From: a virus
Direction: 5' to 3' (one strand)
IMG/VR virus record: IMGVR_UViG_3300043399_000128
Span: 1-31,679 of that record
DNA length: 31,679 nt
Notes under the pieces: generated by a model
What the model saw: the letters and a program-made list of their open reading frames with translations, nothing else
The model's database searches: none
Told to the model about the DNA's origin: nothing
In this document: positions 14,351-24,848 of the stretch, piece after piece
Numbering within the stretch: the first letter of the stretch is position 1
How the letters are laid out: each line of letters begins with the position of its first letter
Program-made: the position numbers and the translations under genes

Positions 14351-15295
14351 ATGAAGAAATTTTTACTGTTGTTGCTATTCCCAGTGCTGGCGCATGCATG
14401 GCAACCAGATTCGTCAAAACCAATTGAAGCGATTATGGCATGGACTCCAGGGAGCGTTAATGAAATTTCCTTTAGGGTTTTGGCCAAACAAGTTGAACAA
14501 AATACAGGAGCAAAATTTGTTATTGTGAACCGTCCAGGTGCTGGTGGTGTTATTGGCACTGAAGAACTAAGCAAGAAACCAGCTGATGGTTACTTTGTCA
14601 CTAACGTGTCAGTTCCAGGTATTGCTGCAATGGACAAAGTTTCTGTTCGCGGTGAAGGCAGAACATACACAACAGACAGCTTTGTTTACCCAACTCATGT
14701 GGCATCAAGCCCATTTGTTGTAGTTGCCAAGGCTGGTGATCCAGTTAAGAATCCAAAGCAATTAGTCCAAGCCTTGAAGACAGAAAAGGTTACTATCGCT
14801 GCCAGCGGTGGTGCTAGATTAGTCTATGAGTCTATTGCGTCTAATGTTAAGTTTGGCGATGTTGTTCGCGTAGATCACAAAGGTCCAGTTGATGCTCTTA
14901 ATGATGTGGTTGGTGGACACGTAAGATTCGCTATTGTTCCAGCACTTGTTGCTAACCCTCTTTACAGAGATGGACGAGTACAAGTTGTGGCACTAAGTGG
15001 TAACACACCGCTAGTTCAGATTCCTGATGCTGCGACTATGGATACAGCTATTCCAAAGTTCAATGTATCTGGTATGTGGGCTCTAATGTTACCTGCGAAC
15101 GCACCAAAAGAAGTTGTTGAATGGTACAACCGAGAGTTCACCAAGGCTATGAAGTCTGAAGAAGTCAAAGCTGTGTTCTACGACAACCTATTGACTGAAA
15201 ATAAGGCTTTACAGAACCCAGAAGCCATGAAATTATGGGTAAAAACACGCGAAAAACAGTGGCAACCGTTGGTAGAAGCCGTTTTAGCTAAATAA
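14351..15295 (+). CDS. Bug/TctC-type periplasmic substrate-binding protein (second copy)
   Basis: A protein of 314 aa with a clear signal peptide (MKKFLLLLLFPVLAHA). It matches the canonical Bug/TctC layout: W-T-P-G near residue 33, then NRPGAGGVIGTEELSKKPADG at about 58-78, the ASGG turn, and the C-terminal WALMLPANAPKEVVEWYNREF segment followed by a helical tail. In tripartite tricarboxylate transporters such proteins bind carboxylates. Bug paralogs are highly expanded in Burkholderiales, which suggests the host group. The gene is 2 bases after the PP-loop gene. A T4-like late box begins five bases after its stop. Confidence 0.88.
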   Translation: MKKFLLLLLFPVLAHAWQPDSSKPIEAIMAWTPGSVNEISFRVLAKQVEQNTGAKFVIVNRPGAGGVIGTEELSKKPADGYFVTNVSVPGIAAMDKVSVRGEGRTYTTDSFVYPTHVASSPFVVVAKAGDPVKNPKQLVQALKTEKVTIAASGGARLVYESIASNVKFGDVVRVDHKGPVDALNDVVGGHVRFAIVPALVANPLYRDGRVQVVALSGNTPLVQIPDAATMDTAIPKFNVSGMWALMLPANAPKEVVEWYNREFTKAMKSEEVKAVFYDNLLTENKALQNPEAMKLWVKTREKQWQPLVEAVLAK

Positions 15296-16177: not shown

Positions 16178-16747
16178 ATGCGTATTTTGATCTCAATGAG
16201 GGATGTTCGCATCCCTCCAAATAATTTCTTGTTTGACTGCTTGGAAAGAAGTTGGTACGACTTTCTAAGCGGTCACACTCTTATTCCACACGCCAATACT
16301 GTTACTGTGGATGAGAGCATTGAGTTTGATTGTCTTGTTCTAACTGGTGGTCCAGATTCTCTTGCACGTAACACAACAGAAAACAATCTGTTTTTGCATG
16401 CAATTAAAAGAAAGAAGCCTATCATTGGAGTCTGTCACGGTGCGTTTGTTGTGAACGAACTAACTGGTGGATCCAACGATATCATCCCAGAGTTGATCCC
16501 AGCACATGACAATACAAAGCACATGGTAGAGATGGATGGTAAGACGATAGAAGTCAACAGCTATCATGGTCAAGTGATTCGTAAGTTAGGGTCTACAATG
16601 ATTCCACTTGCAACTCATACACCAGATGCAACTATCGAAGCGTTTCGTCATCACACCTTGCCAATTTTTGGTATCGTCTGGCACCCAGAAAGAATGGAGA
16701 ATCCAGTGCTACCACAAGCAGTGCAAAATATTTTAGAAAATACTTGA
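16178..16747 (+). CDS. Class I glutamine amidotransferase
   Basis: A protein of 189 aa of the GATase-1 (peptidase C26) type. The nucleophile is C86 in the elbow PIIGVCHGAF; the partners H169 and E171 are in IVWHPERM; LTGGPDS at 55-61 and NSYHGQ at 127-132 are the usual oxyanion and substrate loops. Such domains hydrolyse glutamine to glutamate and ammonia for a partner synthase. No synthase domain is fused, and the PP-loop protein at 13329 lacks a glutaminase, so they may act together. It could also act as a gamma-glutamyl hydrolase or peptidase. The next promoter overlaps its stop. Confidence 0.85.
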   Translation: MRILISMRDVRIPPNNFLFDCLERSWYDFLSGHTLIPHANTVTVDESIEFDCLVLTGGPDSLARNTTENNLFLHAIKRKKPIIGVCHGAFVVNELTGGSNDIIPELIPAHDNTKHMVEMDGKTIEVNSYHGQVIRKLGSTMIPLATHTPDATIEAFRHHTLPIFGIVWHPERMENPVLPQAVQNILENT

Positions 16748-16772
16748 CTTTTTTCCGTTTCTGACGTAAAAT
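16744..16772 (+). promoter_or_regulatory. Sigma70-type promoter P1 of the small-RNA run
   Basis: -35 TTGACT (16744-16749), 17-bp spacer, -10 TAAAAT (16767-16772). The -35 overlaps the stop of the amidotransferase gene. Confidence 0.75.
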
Positions 16773-16778
16773 TTGTCT

Positions 16779-16824
16779 AAATAGATCGAGAAGAGAAAAC
16801 CTTACAGGTTGTAGGGTTTTTCAC
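16779..16824 (+). ncRNA. Very short transcript ending in a terminator hairpin
   Basis: From the expected start of P1 to a 10-bp stem AAAACCTTAC (16797-16806) / GTAGGGTTTT (16812-16821), with one G-U pair and a T run. The predicted RNA is about 45 nt. It may be a small RNA or an attenuated leader. Confidence 0.5.
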
Positions 16825-16853
16825 TTGACTTTAAACCAAGGATGTAGTAGAAT
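16825..16853 (+). promoter_or_regulatory. Sigma70-type promoter P2
   Basis: -35 TTGACT (16825-16830), 17-bp spacer, -10 TAGAAT (16848-16853). Confidence 0.75.
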
Positions 16854-16859
16854 TCAATC

Positions 16860-16994
16860 ATGTTAAAAATATCTTGTTCCAGAATGCATAAACAGCTACC
16901 GTTGAATAACGGATGGACAAGCACACGCCCATCATTTGTCGAAGGCGCTGGTTACGCGATTGAGGATACGAAGGGTTTTGGTAAGAAGATGTAA
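16860..16994 (+). CDS. Possible 44-aa leader peptide
   Basis: An ATG-initiated frame of 44 aa. The ATG sits 7 bases after the -10 of P2, so the mRNA may be leaderless; no ribosome-binding site is visible. The second half (RPSFVEGAGYAIEDTKGFGK) has a protein-like composition. Its last codons (16973-16984) are the 5' arm of an antiterminator stem, so translation would affect the folding of the downstream terminator. This layout resembles a leader peptide of an attenuator. It could also be a chance frame within a noncoding RNA. Confidence 0.35.
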   Translation: MLKISCSRMHKQLPLNNGWTSTRPSFVEGAGYAIEDTKGFGKKM

Positions 16995-17056
16995 GACGAC
17001 TTAGATTAGGTCTCTTTACCAAAACCCTCGAAGATGAAAGTCTCGAGGGTTTTTTG
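16973..17056 (+). promoter_or_regulatory. Attenuator: mutually exclusive antiterminator and terminator
   Basis: GGGTTTTGGTAA (16973-16984) pairs perfectly with TTACCAAAACCC (17016-17027). Seven bases of that 3' arm also form the terminator stem AAAACCCTCGA (17021-17031) / TCGAGGGTTTT (17043-17053), followed by more T. Only one stem can exist at a time. Confidence 0.75.
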
Positions 17057-17066
17057 TTTTAGGGTG

Positions 17067-17094
17067 TTGACTTTTATCACAACTGTGGTATAAT
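17067..17094 (+). promoter_or_regulatory. Sigma70-type promoter P3
   Basis: -35 TTGACT (17067-17072), 16-bp spacer, -10 TATAAT (17089-17094). Confidence 0.8.
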
Positions 17095-17100
17095 ACAATG

Positions 17101-17156
17101 CTCTGTTACTGATGACAGTTTTGCGAATCCCCTTCAATGTTGAGGGTCTTTCAAGA
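17101..17156 (+). ncRNA. Short transcript with terminal hairpin
   Basis: From the expected start of P3 to a hairpin with CCCTTCAA / TTGAGGG (one bulge, 2-nt loop, about 17130-17147), followed by TCTTTC. Predicted length is about 55 nt. No ORF with a ribosome-binding site is seen. Confidence 0.45.
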
Positions 17157-17162
17157 AAGTTG

Positions 17163-17191
17163 TTGACAGTAACGCTGACATGATGTAGAAT
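17163..17191 (+). promoter_or_regulatory. Sigma70-type promoter P4
   Basis: -35 TTGACA (17163-17168), 17-bp spacer, -10 TAGAAT (17186-17191). Confidence 0.75.
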
Positions 17192-17197
17192 TATGTC

Positions 17198-17258
17198 TTA
17201 GTTGGTTGAGATGATCGTATCTTAGCCAAGACCTTACGGTTAGTGAGGTTATTAAAAA
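17198..17258 (+). ncRNA. Short transcript with terminal hairpin
   Basis: From the expected start of P4 to a stem ACCTTAC / GTGAGGT with a 5-nt loop (about 17231-17249) and a following TATTAAA. Predicted length is about 55-60 nt. Confidence 0.45.
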
Positions 17259-17263
17259 CGGTA

Positions 17264-17292
17264 TTGACTATAAATCGTAAATGATGTATAAT
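17264..17292 (+). promoter_or_regulatory. Sigma70-type promoter P5, main promoter of the tRNA array
   Basis: -35 TTGACT (17264-17269), 17-bp spacer, -10 TATAAT (17287-17292). The next elements are the boxB/boxA leader and the tRNA genes. Confidence 0.85.
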
Positions 17293-17301
17293 CAATACCT
17301 T

Positions 17302-17332
17302 GCTGCGACAGCGGCATGGTTCTTTAAAAATT
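17302..17332 (+). promoter_or_regulatory. rRNA-type antitermination leader (boxB hairpin and boxA)
   Basis: A small hairpin GCTG-CGA-CAGC (17302-17312) is followed by TTCTTTAAAAATT (17320-17332). This closely resembles the boxA of proteobacterial rRNA leaders (betaproteobacterial type), which loads NusB/NusE and the antitermination complex. It stands at the head of an operon of about 5 kb of stable RNA. Confidence 0.7.
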
Positions 17333-17349
17333 CGGGACTTTGTTTTAAA

Positions 17350-17428
17350 ACGACTTAGGTTTGAAAGTCGGGGTAAGTGACTCGGTGTAAACTGATATCG
17401 ACCTCCCTGTTAGTATTGCCTAAGTCGT
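17350..17428 (+). ncRNA. Structured leader RNA closed by a perfect 10-bp stem
   Basis: ACGACTTAGG (17350-17359) pairs with CCTAAGTCGT (17419-17428). The 59-nt interior holds AAGTGAC and CGACCTCCCTGT (17399-17410). Both motifs recur in the RNA at 21451. It lies 5 bases before the first tRNA. Confidence 0.6.
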
Positions 17429-17433
17429 CTTGT

Positions 17434-17507
17434 TCCTCCATGGTGTAATGGTAACACAACGGGCTTTGAACTCGTTATCGTTGGTTCGATTCCAACTGGG
17501 GGTGCCA
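17434..17507 (+). tRNA. tRNA-Gln (TTG)
   Basis: Cloverleaf with acceptor TCCTCCA/TGGGGGT, anticodon stem ACGGG/CTCGT, loop CTTTGAA (TTG), T-arm GTTGG TTCGATT CCAAC and encoded CCA. The weak 1-72 pair is typical of bacterial tRNA-Gln. The CCA bases also begin the long stem of the next element. Confidence 0.92.
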
Positions 17508-17608
17508 AACAAAAACATACTAACCAGTATCGTAGCAGTACTGCTAGGCTACAGGATTTTCGTGGGTTCGATCCCCACAACTAGGTTCGTTAGTATGTTT
17601 TTGTTTGG
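17505..17608 (+). ncRNA. tRNA-like RNA on a perfect 19-bp stem
   Basis: CAAACAAAAACATACTAAC (17506-17524) pairs perfectly with its complement at 17589-17607; C17505-G17608 extends it. Inside are a GTAGC/GCTAC hairpin and a true T-arm, GTGGG TTCGATC CCCAC. There is no complete acceptor or anticodon arm, so the long stem replaces the acceptor stem. It is not a terminator (no T run after the stem). Confidence 0.75.
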
Positions 17609-17630
17609 TAATCGTTCACAAGGAGAAGTT

Positions 17631-17762
17631 ATGAAACGAAAACAAATCGTGCGCGAACGTAACTGCTTCGTTCGATTAGCACTATTCCGTAAAGCAGGTG
17701 TACATCGTAAGTCTAACAAGGCTCTGCGTCGTGCACAAAAACAATCACCATTGGGTTTGTAG
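17631..17762 (+). CDS. Small basic protein inside the tRNA array
   Basis: ATG with AAGGAG at 17620-17625 gives 43 aa, very rich in K and R (MKRKQIVRERN, then KSNKALRRAQKQSPLGL). The last ten bases overlap the start of tRNA-Lys(TTT). The composition is like a ribosome- or RNA-binding peptide, but no family is recognised. A longer frame from 17430 runs through the tRNA-Gln gene and is rejected. The strong ribosome site and the small basic product support a real gene; location within an RNA operon suggests it is translated from the unprocessed transcript. Confidence 0.65.
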   Translation: MKRKQIVRERNCFVRLALFRKAGVHRKSNKALRRAQKQSPLGL

Positions 17763-17829
17763 TTTAACGGCAAAAACATCTGGCTTTTAACCAGTAAGAC
17801 TCTCGGTTCGAATCCGAGCAGACCCACCA
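17753..17829 (+). tRNA. tRNA-Lys (TTT)
   Basis: Acceptor GGGTTTG/CAGACCC, D-stem GTTT/AAAC, loop CTTTTAA (TTT), T-arm CTCGG TTCGAAT CCGAG, encoded CCA. The 5' end overlaps the end of the small basic ORF. Confidence 0.92.
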
Positions 17830-17833
17830 AAAG

Positions 17834-17927
17834 TTCTTAGGGGTGGGCATAGTGTAGTGGCAGCACCCGACTCTGTGAAAGTCGTAGTATGGGATCGTTA
17901 CCCATTGTTCACCCCTAAGAATTTTTT
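17834..17927 (+). terminator. Extended acceptor stem plus T-tract around tRNA-His
   Basis: TTCTTAGGG (17834-17842) pairs perfectly with CCCTAAGAA (17913-17921), extending the tRNA-His acceptor helix by 9 bp, and is followed by TTTTTT (17922-17927). It looks like a terminator whose loop is a whole tRNA. With boxA upstream it may be read through. Confidence 0.5.
17842..17916 (+). tRNA. tRNA-His (GTG)
   Basis: Acceptor GTGGGCA/TGTTCAC with G-1 pairing C73 as required for His, anticodon stem CGACT/AGTCG, loop CTGTGAA (GTG). The T-loop is ATCGTTA rather than TTCRAxY. The 3' end reads CCT, not CCA. Confidence 0.88.
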
Positions 17928-17930
17928 AGT

Positions 17931-18006
17931 GCCCTCGTAGCTCCAATGGTAGAGCAGAGGATTGAAAATCCTTGTGTTGCTGGTTCGAATCCAGCCGTGG
18001 GCACCA
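17931..18006 (+). tRNA. tRNA-Phe (GAA)
   Basis: Acceptor GCCCTCG/CGTGGGC (one T-T mismatch), loop TTGAAAA (GAA), T-arm GCTGG TTCGAAT CCAGC, encoded CCA. Confidence 0.92.
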
Positions 18007-18014
18007 CAAATTAT

Positions 18015-18088
18015 TCCTTCGTAGCTCAAAGGTAGAGCAATCGGCTGATAACCGATAGACAGAGGATCGTTACCTCTCGAAGGAACCA
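18015..18088 (+). tRNA. tRNA-Ile (GAT)
   Basis: Acceptor TCCTTCG/CGAAGGA, stem ATCGG/CCGAT, loop CTGATAA (GAT), encoded CCA. T-loop is the unusual ATCGTTA. Confidence 0.9.
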
Positions 18089-18093
18089 AACAT

Positions 18094-18186
18094 GGAGACG
18101 TTAGCCGAATCGGCATAGCGGCAGCTGCCTTGAAAGCAGAAGGCTCAGAAATGGGTGTGTGAGTTCGAGTCTCACCGTCTCCGCCA
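18094..18186 (+). tRNA. tRNA-Ser (TGA)
   Basis: Acceptor GGAGACG/CGTCTCC, loop CTTGAAA (TGA), long variable arm, T-loop TTCGAGT, encoded CCA. Confidence 0.92.
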
Positions 18187-18191
18187 AGTTT

Positions 18192-18265
18192 GCCCTATTA
18201 GTATACTGGTATTATTCCTGTCTTGTAATCAGGAGAAGGCAGTTCGATTCTGTCATGGGGCACCA
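18192..18265 (+). tRNA. tRNA-Thr (TGT)
   Basis: Acceptor GCCCTAT/ATGGGGC, loop CTTGTAA (TGT), T-arm GGCAG TTCGATT CTGTC, encoded CCA. The first Y-like element begins at the next base. Confidence 0.92.
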
Positions 18266-18334
18266 GTTTTAGGATTCTTTCAGCAAAATACAAAATTTCA
18301 AACTTATATCTTGAAAAGAAAGCGAATCCTGTTG
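18266..18334 (+). ncRNA. Y-like RNA element 1 (CAGCAA/GTTG family)
   Basis: Closing stem AGGATTC (18271-18277) / GAATCCT (18324-18330); CAGCAA at 18281-18286 and GTTG at 18331-18334. The interior of about 46 nt is A-rich with no tRNA pieces. It starts directly after the CCA of tRNA-Thr and ends 8 bases before tRNA-Glu. Confidence 0.7.
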
Positions 18335-18341
18335 ATTTTAT

Positions 18342-18416
18342 ATCGCGTTCGACTTCAGGTGAGGTCATCAGCCTTTCAAGCTGACTAGACGGGATCGTTA
18401 CCCGTACGCGATACCA
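18342..18416 (+). tRNA. tRNA-Glu (TTC), first copy
   Basis: Acceptor ATCGCGT/ACGCGAT, stem TCAGC/GCTGA, loop CTTTCAA (TTC), encoded CCA. T-loop is the unusual ATCGTTA. Confidence 0.9.
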
Positions 18417-18421
18417 ATTAT

Positions 18422-18497
18422 GAGTCGGTAGTTCCAATGGCAGAACGACGGTCTCCAAAACCGTATGTTGGGGGTTCGAATCCCTCTCGGCTCGCCA
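18422..18497 (+). tRNA. tRNA-Trp (CCA)
   Basis: Acceptor GAGTCGG/TCGGCTC, G73, stem ACGGT/ACCGT, loop CTCCAAA (CCA), encoded 3' CCA. Confidence 0.92.
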
Positions 18498-18504
18498 ATT
18501 TTAT

Positions 18505-18583
18505 TCCGTAGAATCCAAGCAAGGTGCAAGGACTTGACTGTTAATCAATGATTAGACTGGTTCGATCCCAGTGTACGGAGCCA
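18505..18583 (+). tRNA. tRNA-Asn (GTT), first copy
   Basis: Acceptor TCCGTAG/GTACGGA, G73, loop CTGTTAA (GTT), T-arm ACTGG TTCGATC CCAGT, encoded CCA. The D-loop is long (about 13 nt). Confidence 0.88.
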
Positions 18584-18668
18584 AGGGCAAATAGAGATCT
18601 TGTTTTGATGCATGGTCTCTCAATGTTTGTTAGTTTCAATGGGTGGTATAGAAACTGACACTAATTTT
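18584..18668 (+). ncRNA. Structured spacer RNA with a 10-bp hairpin
   Basis: Between tRNA-Asn and tRNA-Ala. AGAGA/TCTCT forms a first stem; TGTTAGTTTC (18628-18637) pairs with GAAACTGACA (18651-18660) through one G-U pair. It holds no CAGCAA/GTTG signature and no ORF. Confidence 0.5.
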
Positions 18669-18743
18669 GGGCTGATAGTGATAATGGGAGCACAGGGGCT
18701 TTGCAAGCCTTTAGTCGGGGTTCGATCCCCCGTCGGTCCACCA
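18669..18743 (+). tRNA. tRNA-Ala (TGC), first copy
   Basis: Acceptor GGGCTGA/TCGGTCC with the G3-U70 identity pair, loop TTTGCAA (TGC), T-arm CGGGG TTCGATC CCCCG, encoded CCA. Confidence 0.9.
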
Positions 18744-18750
18744 AGATTTC

Positions 18751-18824
18751 CTCCGATTAGTGAAATGGTATCACCCGTGCTTTGGGAGCATGTAGCGCAA
18801 GTTCGATTCTTGCATCGGAGACCA
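18751..18824 (+). tRNA. tRNA-Pro (TGG)
   Basis: Acceptor CTCCGAT/ATCGGAG, loop TTTGGGA (TGG), T-loop TTCGATT, encoded CCA. Y-like element 2 begins at the next base. Confidence 0.92.
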
Positions 18825-18900
18825 GTTTTAGAGTAGGTTCAGCAACACATTAGAACACCAAACCGTTAATTTGTCATGTTCGACATAACTACTCTGTTGT
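18825..18900 (+). ncRNA. Y-like RNA element 2 (CAGCAA/GTTG family)
   Basis: Closing stem AGAGTAG (18830-18836) / CTACTCT (18889-18895); CAGCAA at 18840-18845 and GTTG at 18896-18899. The interior has a small ATGT/ACAT hairpin capped by TCG. It follows the CCA of tRNA-Pro directly. Confidence 0.7.
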
Positions 18901-18905
18901 ATTAT

Positions 18906-18980
18906 GGGGGCAGCACAGGGGTGCGGCGGATCCTTGCAAGATTCGTGTCTAGTAGGGTTCGATACCCTCGGCTTCCACCA
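18906..18980 (+). tRNA. tRNA-Ala (TGC), second copy, atypical
   Basis: Acceptor GGGGGCA/GGCTTCC with G3-U70, stem GGATC/GATTC, loop CTTGCAA (TGC), T-loop TTCGATA, encoded CCA. The D-arm is odd (GCAC-AGGG-GTGC with a 4-nt loop), so function is less certain. Confidence 0.7.
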
Positions 18981-18986
18981 ATTTCT

Positions 18987-19062
18987 ACCGTAGAGTTCAC
19001 CTGATGGTGATAACCGACTGTCTATCGGATTGTGGCGGGTTTGATTCCCGTCTACGGTGCCA
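18987..19062 (+). tRNA. tRNA-Asp (GTC), first copy
   Basis: Acceptor ACCGTAG/CTACGGT, G73, loop CTGTCTA (GTC), T-arm GCGGG TTTGATT CCCGT, encoded CCA. Confidence 0.9.
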
Positions 19063-19130
19063 TGTTTTAGGAAAGGTTCAGCAAACCAAAAGCTAACTTT
19101 GGATGTCTAGCGACAAAAACTTTCCTGTTG
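19063..19130 (+). ncRNA. Y-like RNA element 3 (CAGCAA/GTTG family)
   Basis: Closing stem AGGAAAG (19069-19075) / CTTTCCT (19120-19126); CAGCAA at 19079-19084 and GTTG at 19127-19130. The interior is about 44 nt. It lies between the CCA of tRNA-Asp and tRNA-Lys(CTT). Confidence 0.7.
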
Positions 19131-19135
19131 TATTT

Positions 19136-19210
19136 GGGTTGTAAACTTTGATGATGAAGCCTCGGCTCTTAACCGATGAGAAGACAGTTTGAGTCTGTCA
19201 CGACCCACCA
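19136..19210 (+). tRNA. tRNA-Lys (CTT)
   Basis: Acceptor GGGTTGT/ACGACCC, loop CTCTTAA (CTT), T-arm GACAG TTTGAGT CTGTC, encoded CCA. Confidence 0.9.
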
Positions 19211-19220
19211 AACCTCGCCT

Positions 19221-19313
19221 TAACTGATGGCGTATAATGAGATAAGTAATCAGTTATTTTTCTGAAGCACAGCGCCGAGCAGTCAAGTTAATGAGTGCTG
19301 TGCTTCAGAAAAA
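19221..19313 (+). ncRNA. Two back-to-back perfect hairpins
   Basis: TAACTGAT (19221-19228) pairs with ATCAGTTA (19249-19256). At the very next base, TTTTTCTGAAGCACAGC (19257-19273) pairs perfectly over 17 bp with 19297-19313 around a 23-nt loop. The following tRNA starts 2 bases later. The first loop contains TATAAT without a convincing -35. Confidence 0.6.
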
Positions 19314-19314
19314 T

Positions 19315-19443
19315 GGGGACATGATGTAATGGTAGCATAGCATAGCAAAAAGTCAATCCTGTCTGTAGGATTGTTTCCGCAACACTAACGCTCTAACTCT
19401 GTGAAAGTTCTTGTACGTGGTTCGAATCCCGTTGTCCCCACCA
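19315..19443 (+). tRNA. tRNA-like gene, anticodon GTG (His), with a ~54-nt internal insertion
   Basis: Acceptor GGGGACA/TGTCCCC, D-stem ATG/CAT, then about 54 extra bases containing the hairpin CAATCC/GGATTG, then stem AACT/AGTT with loop CTGTGAA (GTG), a T-arm with one bulged T, and encoded CCA. It has A73 and no G-1, unlike normal tRNA-His, so charging by HisRS is doubtful. Confidence 0.65.
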
Positions 19444-19450
19444 GTTTTAT

Positions 19451-19525
19451 GCCTTGTTAACTCAGCGGTAGAGTAGCTCCCTTACAAGGAGACGGTCGGC
19501 GGTTCAATCCCGTCACAAGGTACCA
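19451..19525 (+). tRNA. tRNA-Val (TAC)
   Basis: Acceptor GCCTTGT/ACAAGGT, stem CTCC/GGAG, loop CTTACAA (TAC), T-arm GGCGG TTCAATC CCGTC, encoded CCA. Confidence 0.92.
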
Positions 19526-19530
19526 ATTAT

Positions 19531-19604
19531 GCGTGTGTAGTTTAATGGTAAAATCAGACGTTGCCAACGTTTAGTTGAGAGTTCGATTCTCTCCACCCGC
19601 ACCA
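19531..19604 (+). tRNA. tRNA-Gly (GCC)
   Basis: Acceptor GCGTGTG/CACCCGC (one mismatch), loop TTGCCAA (GCC), T-arm GAGAG TTCGATT CTCTC, encoded CCA. Confidence 0.92.
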
Positions 19605-19714
19605 AGTTCTAGGTTAGTTACAGCAAAAATTAATGCACTGTCAATGGTTGACAAATTGCCTTCTAAGCAATCGTTTGTGGGTTCAAATCCCACTGCAAAA
19701 CCCCTAACCTGTTG
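19605..19714 (+). ncRNA. Y-like RNA element 4 with embedded tRNA-Arg-like body
   Basis: Closing stem AGGTTAG (19611-19617) / CTAACCT (19704-19710); CAGCAA at 19621-19626 and GTTG at 19711-19714. Inside are a D-like arm TGTC/GACA, an anticodon-like arm ATTGC CTTCTAA GCAAT (TCT) and a T-arm GTGGG TTCAAAT CCCAC. Only four acceptor-like pairs (TGCA/TGCA) exist and there is no CCA, so it is a tRNA mimic or decayed tRNA on the closing stem. Confidence 0.65.
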
Positions 19715-19719
19715 TTTTT

Positions 19720-19796
19720 GTCCCTTTAGCATAACTGGAGAATGTACCATCCTACGAAGTTGGGCGATGCAGGTTCGAATCCTGTGGGGGACGCCA
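19720..19796 (+). tRNA. tRNA-Arg (ACG)
   Basis: Acceptor GTCCCTT/GGGGGAC, G73, loop CTACGAA (ACG), T-loop TTCGAAT, encoded CCA. Y-like element 5 begins right after, with one junction A. Confidence 0.92.
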
Positions 19797-19906
19797 AGTT
19801 TTAGGCTACTTTCAGCAAACCAAAATTCATAGGTTCGATTCCTATATTATCCACCAGCCGAAAGGCACTTCGGATGATCGCCATTGGGGCATCAAGGTAG
19901 CCTGTT
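19797..19906 (+). ncRNA. Y-like RNA element 5 with permuted tRNA halves
   Basis: Closing stem AGGCTAC (19803-19809) / GTAGCCT (19897-19903); CAGCAA at 19813-19818 and GTTG at 19904-19907. The interior carries a tRNA 3' half first: T-arm ATAGG TTCGATT CCTAT, acceptor ATTATCC (19846-19852), A and CCA. A hairpin GCC-GAAA-GGC (19857-19866) follows, then GGATGAT (19872-19878), which pairs with ATTATCC through one G-U. The closing stem sits where the anticodon stem would be. Confidence 0.65.
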
Positions 19907-19912
19907 GTTTAT

Positions 19913-20002
19913 GGAGATATGGTCGAGTCTGGTTTATGGCACTTGTCTAGAAAACAAGCGGTGGGAAACTGCCCGTGGGTTCAAATCCTACTATCTCCGC
20001 CA
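19913..20002 (+). tRNA. tRNA-Ser (AGA)
   Basis: Acceptor GGAGATA/TATCTCC, stem CTTGT/ACAAG, loop CTAGAAA (AGA), long variable arm, encoded CCA. An A34 in a bacterial-type Ser tRNA is uncommon. Confidence 0.88.
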
Positions 20003-20023
20003 ATTTTATGAAAGAGGTGTATT

Positions 20024-20602
20024 ATGCCATCAGTATTTTTAACAAGTGACACACACTTTGGTCACACTGGTGTGTGTAAGTTTACACGCGAAGACGGTGT
20101 TACTAAATTAAGACCTTGGGATTCTCCAGAAGAAATGGACGAAGCCATGGTCAAGATGTGGAACGAAACTGTCAAGCCAAATGACAAAGTTTATCACTTG
20201 GGTGATGTTGTCATTAACCGCAAGGCATTAAAGATCATGCACCGTTTAAACGGTGACAAGATTTTGATTAAAGGCAACCATGATATCTTTAGGTTGGAAG
20301 ACTATACTCCGTTCTTCCGAGATATCCGTGGAAGCCATGTGATGAATGGATTGATCTTGACTCACATTCCTGTTCACCCACAACAATTGTATCGTTTTGG
20401 TTGTAACATTCATGGTCACTTGCACAGTAACCGTGTTATGTACCAAGACAAGCACATGGGTGAAATCATAGATCCAAGGTACTACTCTGTATGCGTTGAA
20501 CAAACAGACTTCAGACCCATCTTGTTTGAGGACGTCTTGAAGAAAATTCAAGAACAGGGTGGTACCGTGGGTTTCAAGAATGGTAACGGTAAGATAGATT
20601 AA
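20024..20602 (+). CDS. Calcineurin-like metallophosphoesterase
   Basis: A protein of 192 aa with AGAGGTG before the ATG. The di-metal motifs of the superfamily are complete: D9-x-H11 (TSDTHFGH), G60-D61 (HLGDVV), G84-N-H-D87 (IKGNHD), H114 (LTHIP) and H130-G-H132 (NIHGHLH). Enzymes of this fold cleave phosphomonoesters or phosphodiesters, including nucleic acid ends and cyclic nucleotides. It is the only full-size protein gene inside the tRNA array, and tRNA-Ser(GCT) starts one base after its stop codon, so it is read from the same transcript. A role in RNA end processing is possible but not shown by sequence. Confidence 0.88.
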   Translation: MPSVFLTSDTHFGHTGVCKFTREDGVTKLRPWDSPEEMDEAMVKMWNETVKPNDKVYHLGDVVINRKALKIMHRLNGDKILIKGNHDIFRLEDYTPFFRDIRGSHVMNGLILTHIPVHPQQLYRFGCNIHGHLHSNRVMYQDKHMGEIIDPRYYSVCVEQTDFRPILFEDVLKKIQEQGGTVGFKNGNGKID

Positions 20603-20603
20603 T

Positions 20604-20690
20604 GGAGAGTGGGCAGGATGGTAATGCAGCAGATTGCTAATCTGTCATCGTAGTGATACGGTGAGTGGGTTCGATTCCCACACTCTCCGC
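20604..20690 (+). tRNA. tRNA-Ser (GCT)
   Basis: Acceptor GGAGAGT/ACTCTCC, stem CAGA/TCTG, loop TTGCTAA (GCT), long variable arm, T-arm GTGGG TTCGATT CCCAC, encoded CCA. Confidence 0.92.
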
Positions 20691-20767
20691 CAGTTGTAAT
20701 GCAGAGTCGCTCTCTGCCGCAGACGTAAGCGAAATGCGTGACAGTCGAGGAGAGACCCGAGCCAAAT
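20691..20767 (+). ncRNA. Structured spacer between two tRNAs
   Basis: Stems CTCTC/GAGAG and CGCA/TGCG can form around a GACGTAAGCGAAA segment. It carries no CAGCAA/GTTG signature and no ORF with a ribosome site. It is probably a processed spacer or small RNA. Confidence 0.35.
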
Positions 20768-20861
20768 GCTCCCATAGTTTAATGGTAAAACACCTGATTT
20801 ATACTCAGCATCGTCGCCAGATTAGCGAGCGTTGTAGGTTCGAATCCTACTGGGAGTACCA
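20768..20861 (+). tRNA. tRNA with anticodon TAT (Ile) and an extra variable-arm hairpin
   Basis: Acceptor GCTCCCA/TGGGAGT, D-stem GTTT/AAAC, stem CTGA/TCAG, loop TTTATAC (TAT), T-arm GTAGG TTCGAAT CCTAC, encoded CCA. About 24 nt lie in the variable region and form a hairpin with CGTCGC/GCGAGCG. Class II arms are not normal for Ile. Confidence 0.75.
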
Positions 20862-20867
20862 GATTAC

Positions 20868-20944
20868 GCCGAAGTGATGGAATTGGTATACGTGCCTGTC
20901 TCAAAAGCAGGATTCTGTGGGTTCGAGTCCCACCTTCGGTACCA
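20868..20944 (+). tRNA. tRNA-Leu (CAA) with short variable arm
   Basis: Acceptor GCCGAAG/CTTCGGT, Leu-type D-arm with GGAATTGGTATACG, stem CCTGT/GCAGG, loop CTCAAAA (CAA), encoded CCA. Only about 5 nt lie in the variable region, where bacterial Leu tRNAs normally have a long arm. Confidence 0.88.
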
Positions 20945-20947
20945 AAT

Positions 20948-20976
20948 TTGACTTATCTGTACAGATAAGGTATAAT
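20948..20976 (+). promoter_or_regulatory. Internal tRNA promoter with palindromic spacer (possible operator)
   Basis: -35 TTGACT (20948-20953), 17-bp spacer, -10 TATAAT (20971-20976). The spacer is nearly filled by a perfect 18-bp palindrome, CTTATCTGTACAGATAAG (20952-20969). Confidence 0.8.
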
Positions 20977-20985
20977 AGTTGTAAT

Positions 20986-21069
20986 GCGAGTATGGTGGAA
21001 TGGTATACGCAGCAGACTTAAAATCTGCCTCCTTCGGGATTGCGAGTTCGAGTCTCGCTACTCGCACCA
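20986..21069 (+). tRNA. tRNA-Leu (TAA)
   Basis: Acceptor GCGAGTA/TACTCGC, stem CAGA/TCTG, loop CTTAAAA (TAA), normal long variable arm (CTCCTTCGGGATT), T-loop TTCGAGT, encoded CCA. Confidence 0.92.
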
Positions 21070-21076
21070 AGAATAT

Positions 21077-21152
21077 GTCGCTATGGTCTAATGGATAAGG
21101 CAACGGTCTTCTACACCGTACGATGGGAGTTCGAATCTCTCTAGCGACGCCA
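21077..21152 (+). tRNA. tRNA-Arg (TCT)
   Basis: Acceptor GTCGCTA/TAGCGAC, G73, stem ACGGT/ACCGT, loop CTTCTAC (TCT), encoded CCA. Confidence 0.92.
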
Positions 21153-21156
21153 TTAT

Positions 21157-21232
21157 GCGCTTGTAGCTCAATGGTTAGAGCAGTGGACTCATAATCCATT
21201 GGTTACAGGTTCGAGTCCTGTCGGGCGCACCA
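21157..21232 (+). tRNA. tRNA with anticodon CAT (Met or Ile2), first
   Basis: Acceptor GCGCTTG/CGGGCGC, D-arm GCTC/GAGC, stem TGGA/TCCA, loop CTCATAA (CAT), T-arm ACAGG TTCGAGT CCTGT, encoded CCA. Looks like an elongator. Confidence 0.9.
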
Positions 21233-21238
21233 GATTAT

Positions 21239-21316
21239 GTACGAGTGGCAGAGTGGTCCAATGCAACGGATTGCAAATCCGTAAAGCCGTGAGTTCAAAT
21301 CTCACCTCGTATTCCA
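21239..21316 (+). tRNA. tRNA-Cys (GCA)
   Basis: Acceptor GTACGAG/CTCGTAT, T73 as required for Cys, stem ACGGA/TCCGT, loop TTGCAAA (GCA), T-arm GTGAG TTCAAAT CTCAC, encoded CCA. Confidence 0.9.
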
Positions 21317-21324
21317 GAAATGTG

Positions 21325-21353
21325 TTGACTTTTTAATGAAGTTGATGTATAAT
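21325..21353 (+). promoter_or_regulatory. Internal tRNA promoter
   Basis: -35 TTGACT (21325-21330), 17-bp spacer, -10 TATAAT (21348-21353), between tRNA-Cys and the second tRNA-Glu. Confidence 0.85.
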
Positions 21354-21374
21354 AATGTTTAGTTAGTTGAAAAT

Positions 21375-21450
21375 GCACGATTCGTCTATCGGTTTAGGAC
21401 ACCAGCCTTTCACGTTGGTAAGACGGGTTCGATTCCCGTATCGTGTACCA
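21375..21450 (+). tRNA. tRNA-Glu (TTC), second copy
   Basis: Acceptor GCACGAT/ATCGTGT, stem CCAGC/GTTGG, loop CTTTCAC (TTC), standard T-loop TTCGATT, encoded CCA. Confidence 0.9.
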
Positions 21451-21676
21451 GTTTTTATACACATGACAATTTGTTGTCAGCAAGAGAAAGACACGCTAAG
21501 AAGATACTTCGAAGGTCAACTTAGTGTAAAAAGAATGAGGGTTCGAATCCCTGCACCAGTGGCTGGCATTCTGTCGAGTATCCCAAGTGACGTACCGACC
21601 TCCCTGTGCACATAACCGATGGGTGAATGGTATCAATAACGTGGTGATACATATAAGTTGTCAGTTGTATAAAAAT
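21451..21676 (+). ncRNA. ~225-nt structured RNA on a 16-bp closing stem
   Basis: TTTTTATACA (21452-21461) pairs with TGTATAAAAA (21666-21675); past a 2x2 loop, TGACAA (21464-21469) pairs with TTGTCA (21658-21663). Inside are TCAGCAAG near 21477, a T-arm AGGG TTCGAAT CCCT followed by CACCA within an AGAATG/CATTCT stem, a GTATCA/TGATAC hairpin, and AAGTGAC plus CGACCTCCCTGT as in the RNA at 17350. It starts right after the CCA of tRNA-Glu. Confidence 0.65.
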
Positions 21677-21680
21677 TAAT

Positions 21681-21769
21681 GGAGGTATCGCATAGCGGTC
21701 GATTGCACGGGACTGTAAATCCTGCACCCTTCGGGGTCTCGGTGGTTCAAATCCATCTACCTCCACCAG
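21681..21769 (+). tRNA. tRNA-Tyr (GTA)
   Basis: Acceptor GGAGGTA/TACCTCC, stem GGGA/TCCT, loop CTGTAAA (GTA), long variable arm with CACCCTTCGGGGTC, T-loop TTCAAAT, encoded CCA. Confidence 0.92.
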
Positions 21770-21905
21770 TTCGAGCGACGTCAGTTGCTTGTCAATCTTG
21801 ACATAGGGTCAAGCGTGTTACATGTGCGGGTCAACGCCAGTTGGTCTATTCGGTCACCACGCAGAGTGACGGCTAAAGTTCGTAATGCCACTTATTCTTA
21901 AGGTG
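21770..21905 (+). ncRNA. Structured spacer RNA
   Basis: Starts after the CCA of tRNA-Tyr. Local stems include TTGAC-atagg-GTCAA (about 21798-21812) and GCC...GTCAC-cacgcaga-GTGAC...GGC (about 21838-21875). No ORF until the small one at 21910. No homology to the other elements was recognised. Confidence 0.4.
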
Positions 21906-21909
21906 TAAA

Positions 21910-21993
21910 ATGAGAAAATTAAAAAGATTTTGCATTAGGTTACTAAGACTTAGAAGAAAGTATTTTTCTGGTTTTAGTACAGGTTTAAACTAA
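21910..21993 (+). CDS. 27-aa highly basic peptide
   Basis: ATG preceded by AAGGTG 8 bases upstream; 27 aa, rich in K and R with a hydrophobic face (MRKLKRFCIRLLRLRRKYFS). It ends one base before tRNA-Asp, as the phosphoesterase gene ends one base before tRNA-Ser. The peptide could be an amphipathic cationic helix with RNA or membrane affinity. It is too short for family assignment; a real ribosome site and precise fit between RNA genes favour expression. Confidence 0.5.
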   Translation: MRKLKRFCIRLLRLRRKYFSGFSTGLN

Positions 21994-21994
21994 T

Positions 21995-22070
21995 GCTCCG
22001 TTAGCTCAATTGGGAGAGCGCGACACTGTCACTGTCGAGGTAAGGGGATCGAAACCCCTACGGGGCGCCA
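21995..22070 (+). tRNA. tRNA-Asp (GTC), second copy
   Basis: Acceptor GCTCCGT/ACGGGGC, stem CGACA/TGTCG, loop CTGTCAC (GTC), G73, encoded CCA. T-loop ATCGAAA. Confidence 0.9.
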
Positions 22071-22077
22071 AGGTTAT

Positions 22078-22157
22078 TGCGGGATAGGGGAGTCTGGTCG
22101 TCCCCGCTAGTCTCATAAGCTAGAGATCGTGTGGTTCAAATCCCACTCCCGCAACCA
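22078..22157 (+). tRNA. tRNA with anticodon CAT, second
   Basis: Acceptor TGCGGGA/TCCCGCA, strong D-arm GGGGA/TCCCC, stem CTAGT/GCTAG, loop CTCATAA (CAT), encoded CCA. T-stem has one bulged T. Initiator, elongator or Ile2 identity is not decided. Confidence 0.85.
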
Positions 22158-22163
22158 TATTAT

Positions 22164-22238
22164 GGTGATATGACGTAGATGGATGCGTGCTGCCCTCATA
22201 AGGCATGAAGAGTGGATCGATACCACTTATCACCACCA
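22164..22238 (+). tRNA. tRNA with anticodon CAT, third
   Basis: Acceptor GGTGATA/TATCACC, stem TGCC/GGCA, loop CTCATAA (CAT), T-loop ATCGATA, encoded CCA. One of the three CAT tRNAs may be Ile2 reading AUA. Confidence 0.85.
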
Positions 22239-22252
22239 ATAAATACAAATAT

Positions 22253-22329
22253 GCGGATGTGATGGAATTGGTATACGTGTTGGTCTTAGAAGCCAAATTT
22301 TGTGGGTTCGAGTCCCACCATCCGCACCA
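22253..22329 (+). tRNA. tRNA-Leu (TAG) with short variable arm
   Basis: Acceptor GCGGATG/CATCCGC, Leu-type D-arm, stem TTGGT/GCCAA, loop CTTAGAA (TAG), only about 5 nt of variable region (ATTTT), encoded CCA. Confidence 0.88.
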
Positions 22330-22335
22330 AATTAT

Positions 22336-22410
22336 TCCGAAGTAGCACAGCGGTAGTGCAGTTGACTGTTAATCAATTGGTCGTAGGTTCGATCCCTGCC
22401 TTCGGAGCCA
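22336..22410 (+). tRNA. tRNA-Asn (GTT), second copy
   Basis: Acceptor TCCGAAG/CTTCGGA, G73, stem TTGA/TCAA, loop CTGTTAA (GTT), encoded CCA. Confidence 0.92.
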
Positions 22411-22417
22411 TTTTAAT

Positions 22418-22493
22418 GCCCTTTTAGCTCAGTTGGTAGAGCAGCACATTAGTAATGTGAAGGTCGCGTGTTCGAATCATGCAAGGGGCACCA
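22418..22493 (+). tRNA. tRNA-Thr (AGT)
   Basis: Acceptor GCCCTTT/AAGGGGC, stem CACA/TGTG, loop TTAGTAA (AGT), T-arm GCGTG TTCGAAT CATGC, encoded CCA. It ends the continuous array. Confidence 0.9.
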
Positions 22494-22516
22494 TTATAGT
22501 TTAGTTGGAGAAAACC

Positions 22517-22684
22517 ATGAGTGATGGTGGTAAAGGTTCAAAGCCACGCCCATTTAGCGTGTCACAAGACGAGTATGATAATCGCTGGGATGCAATTTTT
22601 TCTAGAGATCTTCCAAAAGAAACTGAAGAAAAAGTTACTCGCTACAACGAAGAAACTCAAGAAGTTAAAAAGAATGATAACTGA
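22517..22684 (+). CDS. 55-aa phage protein (PRPFSV type)
   Basis: ATG at 22517 with TTGGAG upstream; 55 aa. The N-terminus GGKGSKPRPFSVSQDEYDNRW is a pattern I recognise from many short phage proteins of unknown function that begin with a glycine/lysine stretch, PRPFSV and an acidic W motif. A charged C-terminal helix follows. It overlaps the next gene by 11 bases in another frame. A longer frame starting at 22521 runs through this gene out of phase and is not the true start of the downstream protein. Confidence 0.75.
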   Translation: MSDGGKGSKPRPFSVSQDEYDNRWDAIFSRDLPKETEEKVTRYNEETQEVKKNDN

Positions 22685-23336
22685 TATAAAAGTTCTTGAT
22701 AACTTTTATACACAACCGCATTCTATTGTTGGATTGGTTGATGATTTTCCTATATCTGGATGTGGTAGTGGAAATAGAAGTATTGGACTAGAATCAATCA
22801 ACAGAGAAATATATGTTGGTGTCAAGAATGCGCTTTGCTCTATTCATGGCGTTGATCCAAATAAAGTAAAGTTAAGCACATTCTTTATGCGTCATGAGTA
22901 CAATGATGTAGATGATATGTTTAATGTTTCAACTACTCATATGGATGGTAAAAATCCAGATGTTTGTAGATCTACAGTTGATGAATACAGGTTGGCATTT
23001 TGTGGTCAAATATTGTTGACCCCAAAGACAGATCCAGATTCTGTTGTAACTATTCACAGATTCAAAGATCACATTGATTGGTCGCCACAAGAAATTGTCA
23101 AACGATGTATTGACGAGTACACACTTCCAGGTGAGTTATATCGCGCTGGCAAGATTGATCTAGAAGAATTCAAACGTATGCGAAGTGCGCATGACGATAA
23201 CTTTGAGTTGACTTGTGAGATCAAAAACGTGTATAATAGAATGGTGTCTTGGAAAGGTGGAACTTTACATGGACAAAGAATAACTAAACACACTCCAAAG
23301 GTATTGAATCAATACTTTTTTGCTGAGTGGTACTAA
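22674..23336 (+). CDS. 2OG-Fe(II) oxygenase-like protein
   Basis: The ATG at 22674 gives 220 aa. The iron site appears as H89-M-D91 (STTHMDGKNP) and the distal H199 in GGTLHGQRI, followed by the strand LNQYFFAEWY. The spacing between the two halves is enlarged by a helical insert (about 130-180). The overall pattern resembles DUF6445-like jelly-roll oxygenases. It lies between the PRPFSV gene and tRNA-Gly(TCC), which starts 4 bases after its stop. The substrate is unknown; the location next to tRNA genes raises the option of an RNA- or ribosome-linked target, but that is speculation. Confidence 0.7.
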   Translation: MITDIKVLDNFYTQPHSIVGLVDDFPISGCGSGNRSIGLESINREIYVGVKNALCSIHGVDPNKVKLSTFFMRHEYNDVDDMFNVSTTHMDGKNPDVCRSTVDEYRLAFCGQILLTPKTDPDSVVTIHRFKDHIDWSPQEIVKRCIDEYTLPGELYRAGKIDLEEFKRMRSAHDDNFELTCEIKNVYNRMVSWKGGTLHGQRITKHTPKVLNQYFFAEWY

Positions 23337-23340
23337 ATTT

Positions 23341-23417
23341 GCGGGTATGGTGTTTAATGGCTAGCATGACAGTCTTCCAAACTGACGGTACGAGTTCGAA
23401 TCTCGTTACCCGCTCCA
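23341..23417 (+). tRNA. tRNA-Gly (TCC)
   Basis: Acceptor GCGGGTA/TACCCGC, stem ACAGT/ACTGA, loop CTTCCAA (TCC), T-arm ACGAG TTCGAAT CTCGT, T73, encoded CCA. It is an outlier placed between two oxygenase genes. Confidence 0.9.
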
Positions 23418-24011: not shown

Positions 24012-24497
24012 ATGATGCGACAAATCAATATCGAAGAAGTCAAGGCTTTTATTCAAGCACAAAGTCCCGAAACCAAAATCTACATCGGTGGAGACTCTGA
24101 GCGTTTTAAGATCGGTAATGATTGGTACGCGGATTACACTCTAGCTGTTGTAGTGCATATTGATGGAAAACACGGTGCAAAAGTTTTCGGTGAGGTTCAA
24201 CGTGAACGTGACTGGGATCAAAAGAAAAACCGTCCACGTATGCGTCTAATGAACGAAGTTTACAAGATCGCAGAATTGTATCACAAGCTGCATGATGTAC
24301 TTGAAGATCGTGATGTTCAAATTCACTTGGACATCAACCCTAACGAAAAGTACGGTTCAAGCTGTGTTATCCAAGAAGCGACTGGATACATTCGTGGTAT
24401 GTGCAACGTAGTGCCTATGGTTAAGCCACAAGCCTTCGCTGCAAGTTACTGTGCAGACCGACTAAAGCACATCATGAGCCACCAAAAGGCTGCTTGA
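24012..24497 (+). CDS. DUF458 (YkuK-like) RNase H-fold protein
   Basis: A protein of 161 aa (start at 24012 or 24015, with AAGGAG at about 24004). The pattern YIGGDSERFKIG, then YTLAVVVHIDGKHGAKVF, a conserved helix LMNEVYKIAELYHKL, IHLDINPNEKYGSS and KPQAFAASYCADR is that of DUF458/YkuK. This family is predicted to have an RNase H-like fold, with acidic residues D28, D103 and a late D as possible metal ligands. It may act on RNA or RNA-DNA hybrids, which fits its place before the RNA-rich TROVE region. The promoter of the next RNA overlaps its stop codon. Confidence 0.8.
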   Translation: MMRQINIEEVKAFIQAQSPETKIYIGGDSERFKIGNDWYADYTLAVVVHIDGKHGAKVFGEVQRERDWDQKKNRPRMRLMNEVYKIAELYHKLHDVLEDRDVQIHLDINPNEKYGSSCVIQEATGYIRGMCNVVPMVKPQAFAASYCADRLKHIMSHQKAA

Positions 24498-24522
24498 CTT
24501 TTATTCGGTTTTGTAGTATAAT
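24494..24522 (+). promoter_or_regulatory. Sigma70-type promoter of the upstream TROVE-region RNA
   Basis: -35 TTGACT (24494-24499), 17-bp spacer, -10 TATAAT (24517-24522). Confidence 0.85.
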
Positions 24523-24528
24523 AATTGT

Positions 24529-24810
24529 ATTGATTGGGATGATTGCAGCATTTTAAACAATACTGCCTAAAGAGTAGCCCCTACAGGAGGAAACACGGTA
24601 ACGTGTCAATTTGGTGGGCTAGGTTGGTTAAAGACTGTCGCGGACTCTTATCGCCTTGTGAACCCTAGTAGGATTCAGACAGTTATGCCCGAATGCATAC
24701 CAGTTGTCTACGCTATAATGTAGACCATGCCAGAGGACTGGACGATTTTCGCTGGGTTTCCAAAAGAGCGTGGTTTTAAGCAAACCAAATAACGTCCCGT
24801 TCATCCCGTT
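24529..24810 (+). ncRNA. ~280-nt structured RNA upstream of the TROVE gene
   Basis: Transcribed from the promoter at 24494. Stems: TAGCCC (24575-24580) / GGGCTA (24616-24621), enclosing ACACG-GTAA-CGTGT (24593-24606) with a GNRA tetraloop; ACTGTC (24634-24639) / GACAGT (24678-24683); GTCTAC/GTAGAC (24706-24725). No credible ORF. It ends before the next promoter at 24813. Confidence 0.7.
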
Positions 24811-24812
24811 GT

Positions 24813-24841
24813 TTGACTTTATTGTATGTGTGAAGTATAAT
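24813..24841 (+). promoter_or_regulatory. Sigma70-type promoter of Y-like element 6 and the TROVE gene
   Basis: -35 TTGACT (24813-24818), 17-bp spacer, -10 TATAAT (24836-24841). The element's closing stem begins about 5 bases after the expected start. Confidence 0.85.
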
Positions 24842-24848
24842 AGAGTTT

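Follow-up and report, generated by a model that had tools for sequence, protein, structure and literature searches.

A predicted transcription attenuator with a leader peptide containing all 20 amino acids lies ahead of a viral tRNA array

The trp, his and ilv attenuators place a short translated ORF before overlapping antiterminator and terminator hairpins, so that the position of the ribosome is decisive, and their leaders carry repeated codons of one or few amino acids, whose biosynthesis they control. The T-box riboswitch also couples tRNA charging to termination. In rRNA operons, the boxA signal (NusB-S10) shields long untranslated RNA from Rho. What large phage tRNA arrays are for and when they are switched on has long been asked. 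Phage tRNAs stand in for depleted host tRNAs, countering host defences that cleave tRNA (PMC10264068, PMC11555353), and the text searched of these two sources holds no description of how phage tRNA genes are regulated. In a further source (PMC12121999), toiL, which lies 5' of topAI, and the whiB7 uORF are each a single short ORF that senses many kinds of stall; toiL works via Rho and translation initiation and responds to antibiotics, and no complete amino-acid set is described for either in the text searched.

Here we analysed a viral record of 31,679 bases (IMGVR_UViG_3300043399_000128; the whole stretch is hereafter the window), and propose that the region ahead of its tRNA operon is most probably a ribosome-mediated transcription attenuator with a specificity that spans all amino acids at once. 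Like the trp, his and ilv systems, it would combine a short translated ORF with overlapping hairpins chosen by ribosome position; unlike them, its leader lists all 20 amino acids, is leaderless and viral, and stands before tRNA genes. It shares with toiL and whiB7 the use of one short ORF for many kinds of stall, though not toiL's route through Rho and translation initiation or its antibiotic input. It has the same boxA core as rRNA operons, likewise ahead of an untranslated stable-RNA operon, but in a phage genome, before tRNA genes only and known here from sequence alone. T-boxes differ from the proposed switch in binding uncharged tRNA directly, without translation; a T-box covariance-model search gave no match in the window at the gathering score or at E<=3, and Rfam at the gathering score returned tRNAs only.

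At the DNA level, nothing in the phage collection searched matched the window, and no convincing DNA or protein relatives emerged among the cultured phages searched. A glutamine-amidotransferase-like gene upstream of the promoter region ends at 16747, and the array starts at 17434 (Table 1). Elsewhere in the window, a gene for a TctC-type tricarboxylate-binding protein (14351-15295), present here in a phage, adjoins a weakly QueC-like gene; a Burkholderiales host, to which this protein and the boxA context pointed, is not claimed, as the identity is only 29%. Further along, a non-coding stretch of about 520 bases (24494-25018) contains two strong promoters and lies directly 5' of a phrog_850 'RNA-binding protein' gene (DUF7788/DUF2828; 25018-26481); it is a candidate non-coding partner RNA.

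Table 1. Features of the region between the upstream gene and the end of the tRNA array (window coordinates).
Feature	Position	Strand	Evidence
P1 (TTGACT-17-TAAAAT)	16744..16772	+	shuffle test; promoter at the equivalent place in relatives
T1, intrinsic terminator after P1, ending at the -35 of P2	16797..16822	+	folding
P2 (TTGACT-17-TAGAAT), predicted to drive the leader ORF	16825..16853	+	shuffle test
Predicted leaderless 44-codon leader ORF (MLKISCSRMHKQLPLNNGWTSTRPSFVEGAGYAIEDTKGFGKKM), all 20 amino acids	16860..16994	+	conservation, profile search
Region 2, 5' strand of antiterminator, within the ORF's final codons	16973..16985	+	folding, covariation, shuffles
Region 3, 3' strand of antiterminator, overlapping the terminator's 5' arm	17016..17027	+	folding, covariation
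Terminator of the attenuator (3:4), stem arms 17021-17031 and 17043-17053, U tract beginning at 17050	17021..17056	+	folding, covariation
P3, bypass; absent from most relatives	17067..17094	+	shuffle test, comparison with relatives
Hairpin after P3, no T run, unconvincing as terminator	~17130..17146	+	segment z -1.0
P4, dyad across -35 and spacer	17163..17191	+	comparison with relatives
Pair of hairpins following P4, T run absent	17202..17250	+	z -4.7
P5, final promoter 5' of the array	17264..17292	+	shuffle test, comparison with relatives
boxA-like antitermination signal GTTCTTTAAAAATTCG	17319..17334	+	motif conservation, bacterial matches
Structured RNA with 10-bp closing stem, in the boxA-to-tRNA-Gln interval	17350..17428	+	isolated element z -4.8
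tRNA array, 30 tRNAs, all 20 amino acids served	17434..23417	+	tRNA calling

An earlier note on this DNA had described five promoters with TTGAC-type -35 elements and 16-17 bp spacers, starting at 16744, 16825, 17067, 17163 and 17264, and all five were recovered at these positions. Shuffling 16701-17300 with dinucleotides preserved (2000 times) gave a mean of 0.14 such promoters and a maximum of 3, and three relatives (L011-L013) each carry five promoters whose positions match the window's one-to-one. The same note had read the four interposed hairpins as stops with T-containing tails, which held for the first two: T1 (16797-16819) has a U5 tail, a folding energy of -12.1 kcal/mol and a z of -3.1, its U tail not being retained in relatives, and the second hairpin (17021-17053) is a good intrinsic terminator with a U6 tail and a z of -5.05. 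The third and fourth have no T run; the pair at 17202-17250 folds well, its tail being TTATTAAAA. On this basis the note had suggested a bank of small RNAs, decoys for the polymerase, or a graded on-switch for the array. Five strong promoters with hairpins between them do invite the first two readings, yet a small-RNA bank, in which each promoter would lead to a terminator and a non-coding RNA, is not what we found: half of the four hairpins lack terminator tails, and the RNA of about 200 nt predicted from P2, the sole long product, is coding (ATG 16860 to TAA 16994), a conserved mRNA, predicted to be leaderless, that shows the folds of an attenuator. Nothing was found in support of decoys, and P3-P5 are missing from most relatives, 17 of the 32 distinct related loci having no such promoters between attenuator and tRNAs. 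Both readings are thus very improbable. Of the three suggestions, the graded on-switch came closest; the note did not mention the small ORF and its 20 amino acids, the pair of antiterminator and terminator, or the boxA.

The start codon of the P2 ORF lies 6 nt 3' of the P2 -10 element. A search of IMG/VR (2.9 million viral contigs), using an alignment of five leader peptides as the query, yielded 45 leader loci by similarity, in most of which the start codon follows the -10 by 6-7 bases (about 10 in the others); since the start codon sits so near the -10, the leader mRNA is predicted to be leaderless or nearly so. Between the window and L011, differences in the ORF are mainly synonymous or conservative, and a pN/pS of 0.53 indicates mild purifying selection. 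In every locus whose contig reaches far enough, a tRNA array lies downstream of the leader, its first gene usually encoding tRNA-Gln, and the ORF is absent in relatives of the upstream gene that have no tRNA array. In the window, the attenuator lies about 440 bases 5' of the array.

The window's 44-residue peptide contains all 20 amino acids, a property met by only 0.4-1.6% of stretches of 40-45 residues from the same phage's own proteins. Across 49 distinct leaders, which form five similarity families and measure 31-46 residues (with a single exception of 67), 38 hold 20 amino acids, 10 hold 19 and one holds 18; for 13 of the 49, Met counts as present only by virtue of the start codon. Single-residue runs, which would mark a single-amino-acid attenuator, occur in none. 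We then compared the window's family with a null in which each alignment column was drawn independently from the residues observed there: we observed 12 complete peptides among 15 representatives where 1.44 were expected, and 0 of 200,000 simulations reached as many, showing that homology alone is insufficient to account for completeness. The set is kept while the residues shift, the single-copy Val occupying 8 alignment columns, Gln 5 and Tyr 4. No correspondence was found between the residue absent from a leader and the tRNA absent from its array. An excess of codon diversity was significant in some leaders (P=0.007 in the window) and not in others, and is not claimed. A leader in L203 (6001-6138) that is related to that of L014 has a disrupted original start (ATG AAC TAG), but another ATG further downstream begins an ORF in which inspection by eye again shows all 20 residues, Val having been lost once and gained elsewhere.

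Several of the five families came to light only through a search blind to composition, which started from GTTCTTTAAAAATTTG in viral contigs and called leaders solely by promoter and ATG spacing; an earlier, composition-guided form of this search was used just to obtain the lead. The blind calling gave 24 distinct ORFs, and, leaving out one spurious ORF of 85 residues, 17 of 23 contained all 20 residues within lengths of 34-46. Many of these are unlike the window's peptide, for example MTNFKHISFTLQPEYRTINCGDSSWAPTGFCVKREN (36 residues) and MMQNLRLSPITLSAMSPTWQANYRCENHGFIGTSKDPAEVCV (42). As a control, 53 matches to the motif without a nearby tRNA gave 5 ORFs, one of them complete, and this one is identical in sequence to a leader that stands before tRNAs on another contig (L298).

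The end of the ORF is embedded in a pair of mutually exclusive hairpins. Region 2 (GGGTTTTGGTAAG) pairs with region 3 (TTACCAAAACCC) as an antiterminator, and region 3 doubles as the 5' arm of the intrinsic terminator, so that the two structures share one strand. In the window, region 2 begins 19 nt 5' of the stop codon, and a ribosome at the stop would cover the 5' strand of the antiterminator. Step-wise folding, which replaced a full-length equilibrium folding whose loose 'terminator' label was uninformative, produced the 2:3 hairpin before region 4 was transcribed in 36/36 distinct sequences, and the terminator in 36/36 once a ribosome was modelled at the stop codon. Covariation scores were 0.128 for the antiterminator and 0.151 for the terminator, versus shuffled means of 0.052 and 0.066, with 0 of 500 shuffles as high, and when the upstream strand was shuffled, none of 500 versions matched the real antiterminator in 9 of 10 loci. 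The remaining leader families have an equal layout with a different sequence. At equilibrium, the switch region of some relatives folds preferentially into the terminator, which means that the switch must be kinetic. A 1:2 pause or protector hairpin was found in 16 of 34 leaders; it is not conserved and is not taken as a universal element.

These findings bear on two other explanations of the ORF. It could encode a functional phage protein, the terminator being ordinary and the antiterminator fortuitous; its conservation and mild purifying selection would fit, but unlike families retain composition rather than sequence, and the antiterminator covaries and outperforms shuffles, leaving this explanation with scarcely any probability. 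Alternatively, the ORF could be a general sensor of translation, responding whenever ribosomes slow down or are missing, as under antibiotic-like stress or host shut-off, with the full set irrelevant. The hairpin logic does work with any stall, and comparable uORFs are known, toiL among them (PMC12121999); such a sensor, however, leaves unexplained why 38 of 49 leaders are complete while the positions move, and we regard it as unlikely. Under the proposed all-amino-acid attenuator, a ribosome-footprint model locates the residue type placed last in the leader, usually Asp for the window's family and Val or Ala for others, at the border of the zone that can be sensed: a ribosome stalled there would already begin to cover region 2, so that 18-20 amino acids may be sensed, not always 20.

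The interval from the attenuator to the first tRNA contains no promoter reaching 10/12 quality in 17 of the 32 distinct related loci. P3-P5 are therefore an optional bypass of the attenuator, and in these 17 loci, barring internal promoters, the array would depend on the switch. For the window itself, one could argue that the stacked promoters provide high constitutive transcription of the array and that the attenuator is a relic, as P3-P5 are strong matches located 3' of the terminator. Yet the group of loci with P3-P5 also retains the leader and both hairpins, which makes a relic improbable. P4 carries a dyad over its -35 and spacer, which reads GTTGAC-N6-GTCAAC in the P4-type promoters of L040, L042, L048 and L059; it is better conserved than the spacers of the other promoters, and is likely an operator for a repressor or activator.

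Shortly 5' of the first tRNA, GTTCTTTAAAAATTTG is conserved; it is a boxA core, equal to the boxA of the 16S-23S spacers of Pseudomonas, Polynucleobacter and others. Of the bacterial matches listed for the boxA 16-mer, 43/83 lie in an rRNA-operon context, nearly all of them in 16S-23S spacers, and the window's copy differs from this 16-mer at one base (TTCG for TTTG). By analogy with rRNA operons, the core fits a role in protecting long untranslated RNA from Rho. A second copy occurs 0.5-1.5 kb downstream in the arrays of L207, L220, L237, L242, L247, L256, L266, L267, L281 and L283, as though antitermination were being restored partway through.

Several smaller elements accompany the array. 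The structured RNA at 17350-17428 is closed by ACGACTTAGG/CCTAAGTCGT and has homologs in L011, L012, L034 and L228; its motif AAGTGAC..CGACCTCCCTGT is seen again near 21585, inside the array. Two very basic small ORFs of about 43 and 27 codons (17632-17763, with a good ribosome-binding site, and 21911-21994) also lie within it. The spacers at 18272-18340, 18831-18900, 19070-19131, 19612-19715, 19804-19910 and 24854-25003 share the pattern stem-N3-CAGCA ... stem'-TGTTG, possibly an H-type pseudoknot judging by the pattern; relatives from the window's clade carry 2-6 copies, and several other groups carry none.

Taken together, we suggest the following mechanism. P2 would produce a leaderless mRNA whose short ORF holds every amino acid. 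When charged tRNAs are all available, the ribosome would reach the stop codon and cover region 2, allowing the terminator (3:4) to form and keeping array expression low. If any charged tRNA fell short, the ribosome would stall upstream, 2:3 would pair, no terminator would form and the polymerase would enter the array, where the host-rRNA-type boxA, presumably through host Nus factors, would assist it across roughly 6 kb that are not translated. In nature, the shortage would be set off by tRNA nucleases of the host, by host shut-off or by starvation. In the window, P3-P5 would add an input independent of the attenuator, giving a baseline alongside an inducible part.

The class of mechanism is old, and a complete-inventory viral leader before tRNA arrays seems to be a fresh variation on the trp/his attenuator. 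We found no precedent for such a leader in viruses before tRNA arrays in the open-access literature searched, which is not proof of absence; to our knowledge, it is the first attenuator leader constrained by a complete residue set rather than by a sequence or a repeated codon. On balance, we favour the view that diverse phages keep complete-inventory leaders as an alarm for almost any tRNA loss, which would free the viral array as an inducible counter-defence. If true, a sensor placed before the arrays would favour tRNA replacement, i.e., counter-defence, over plain codon compensation as their purpose, and would allow this to be tested directly.
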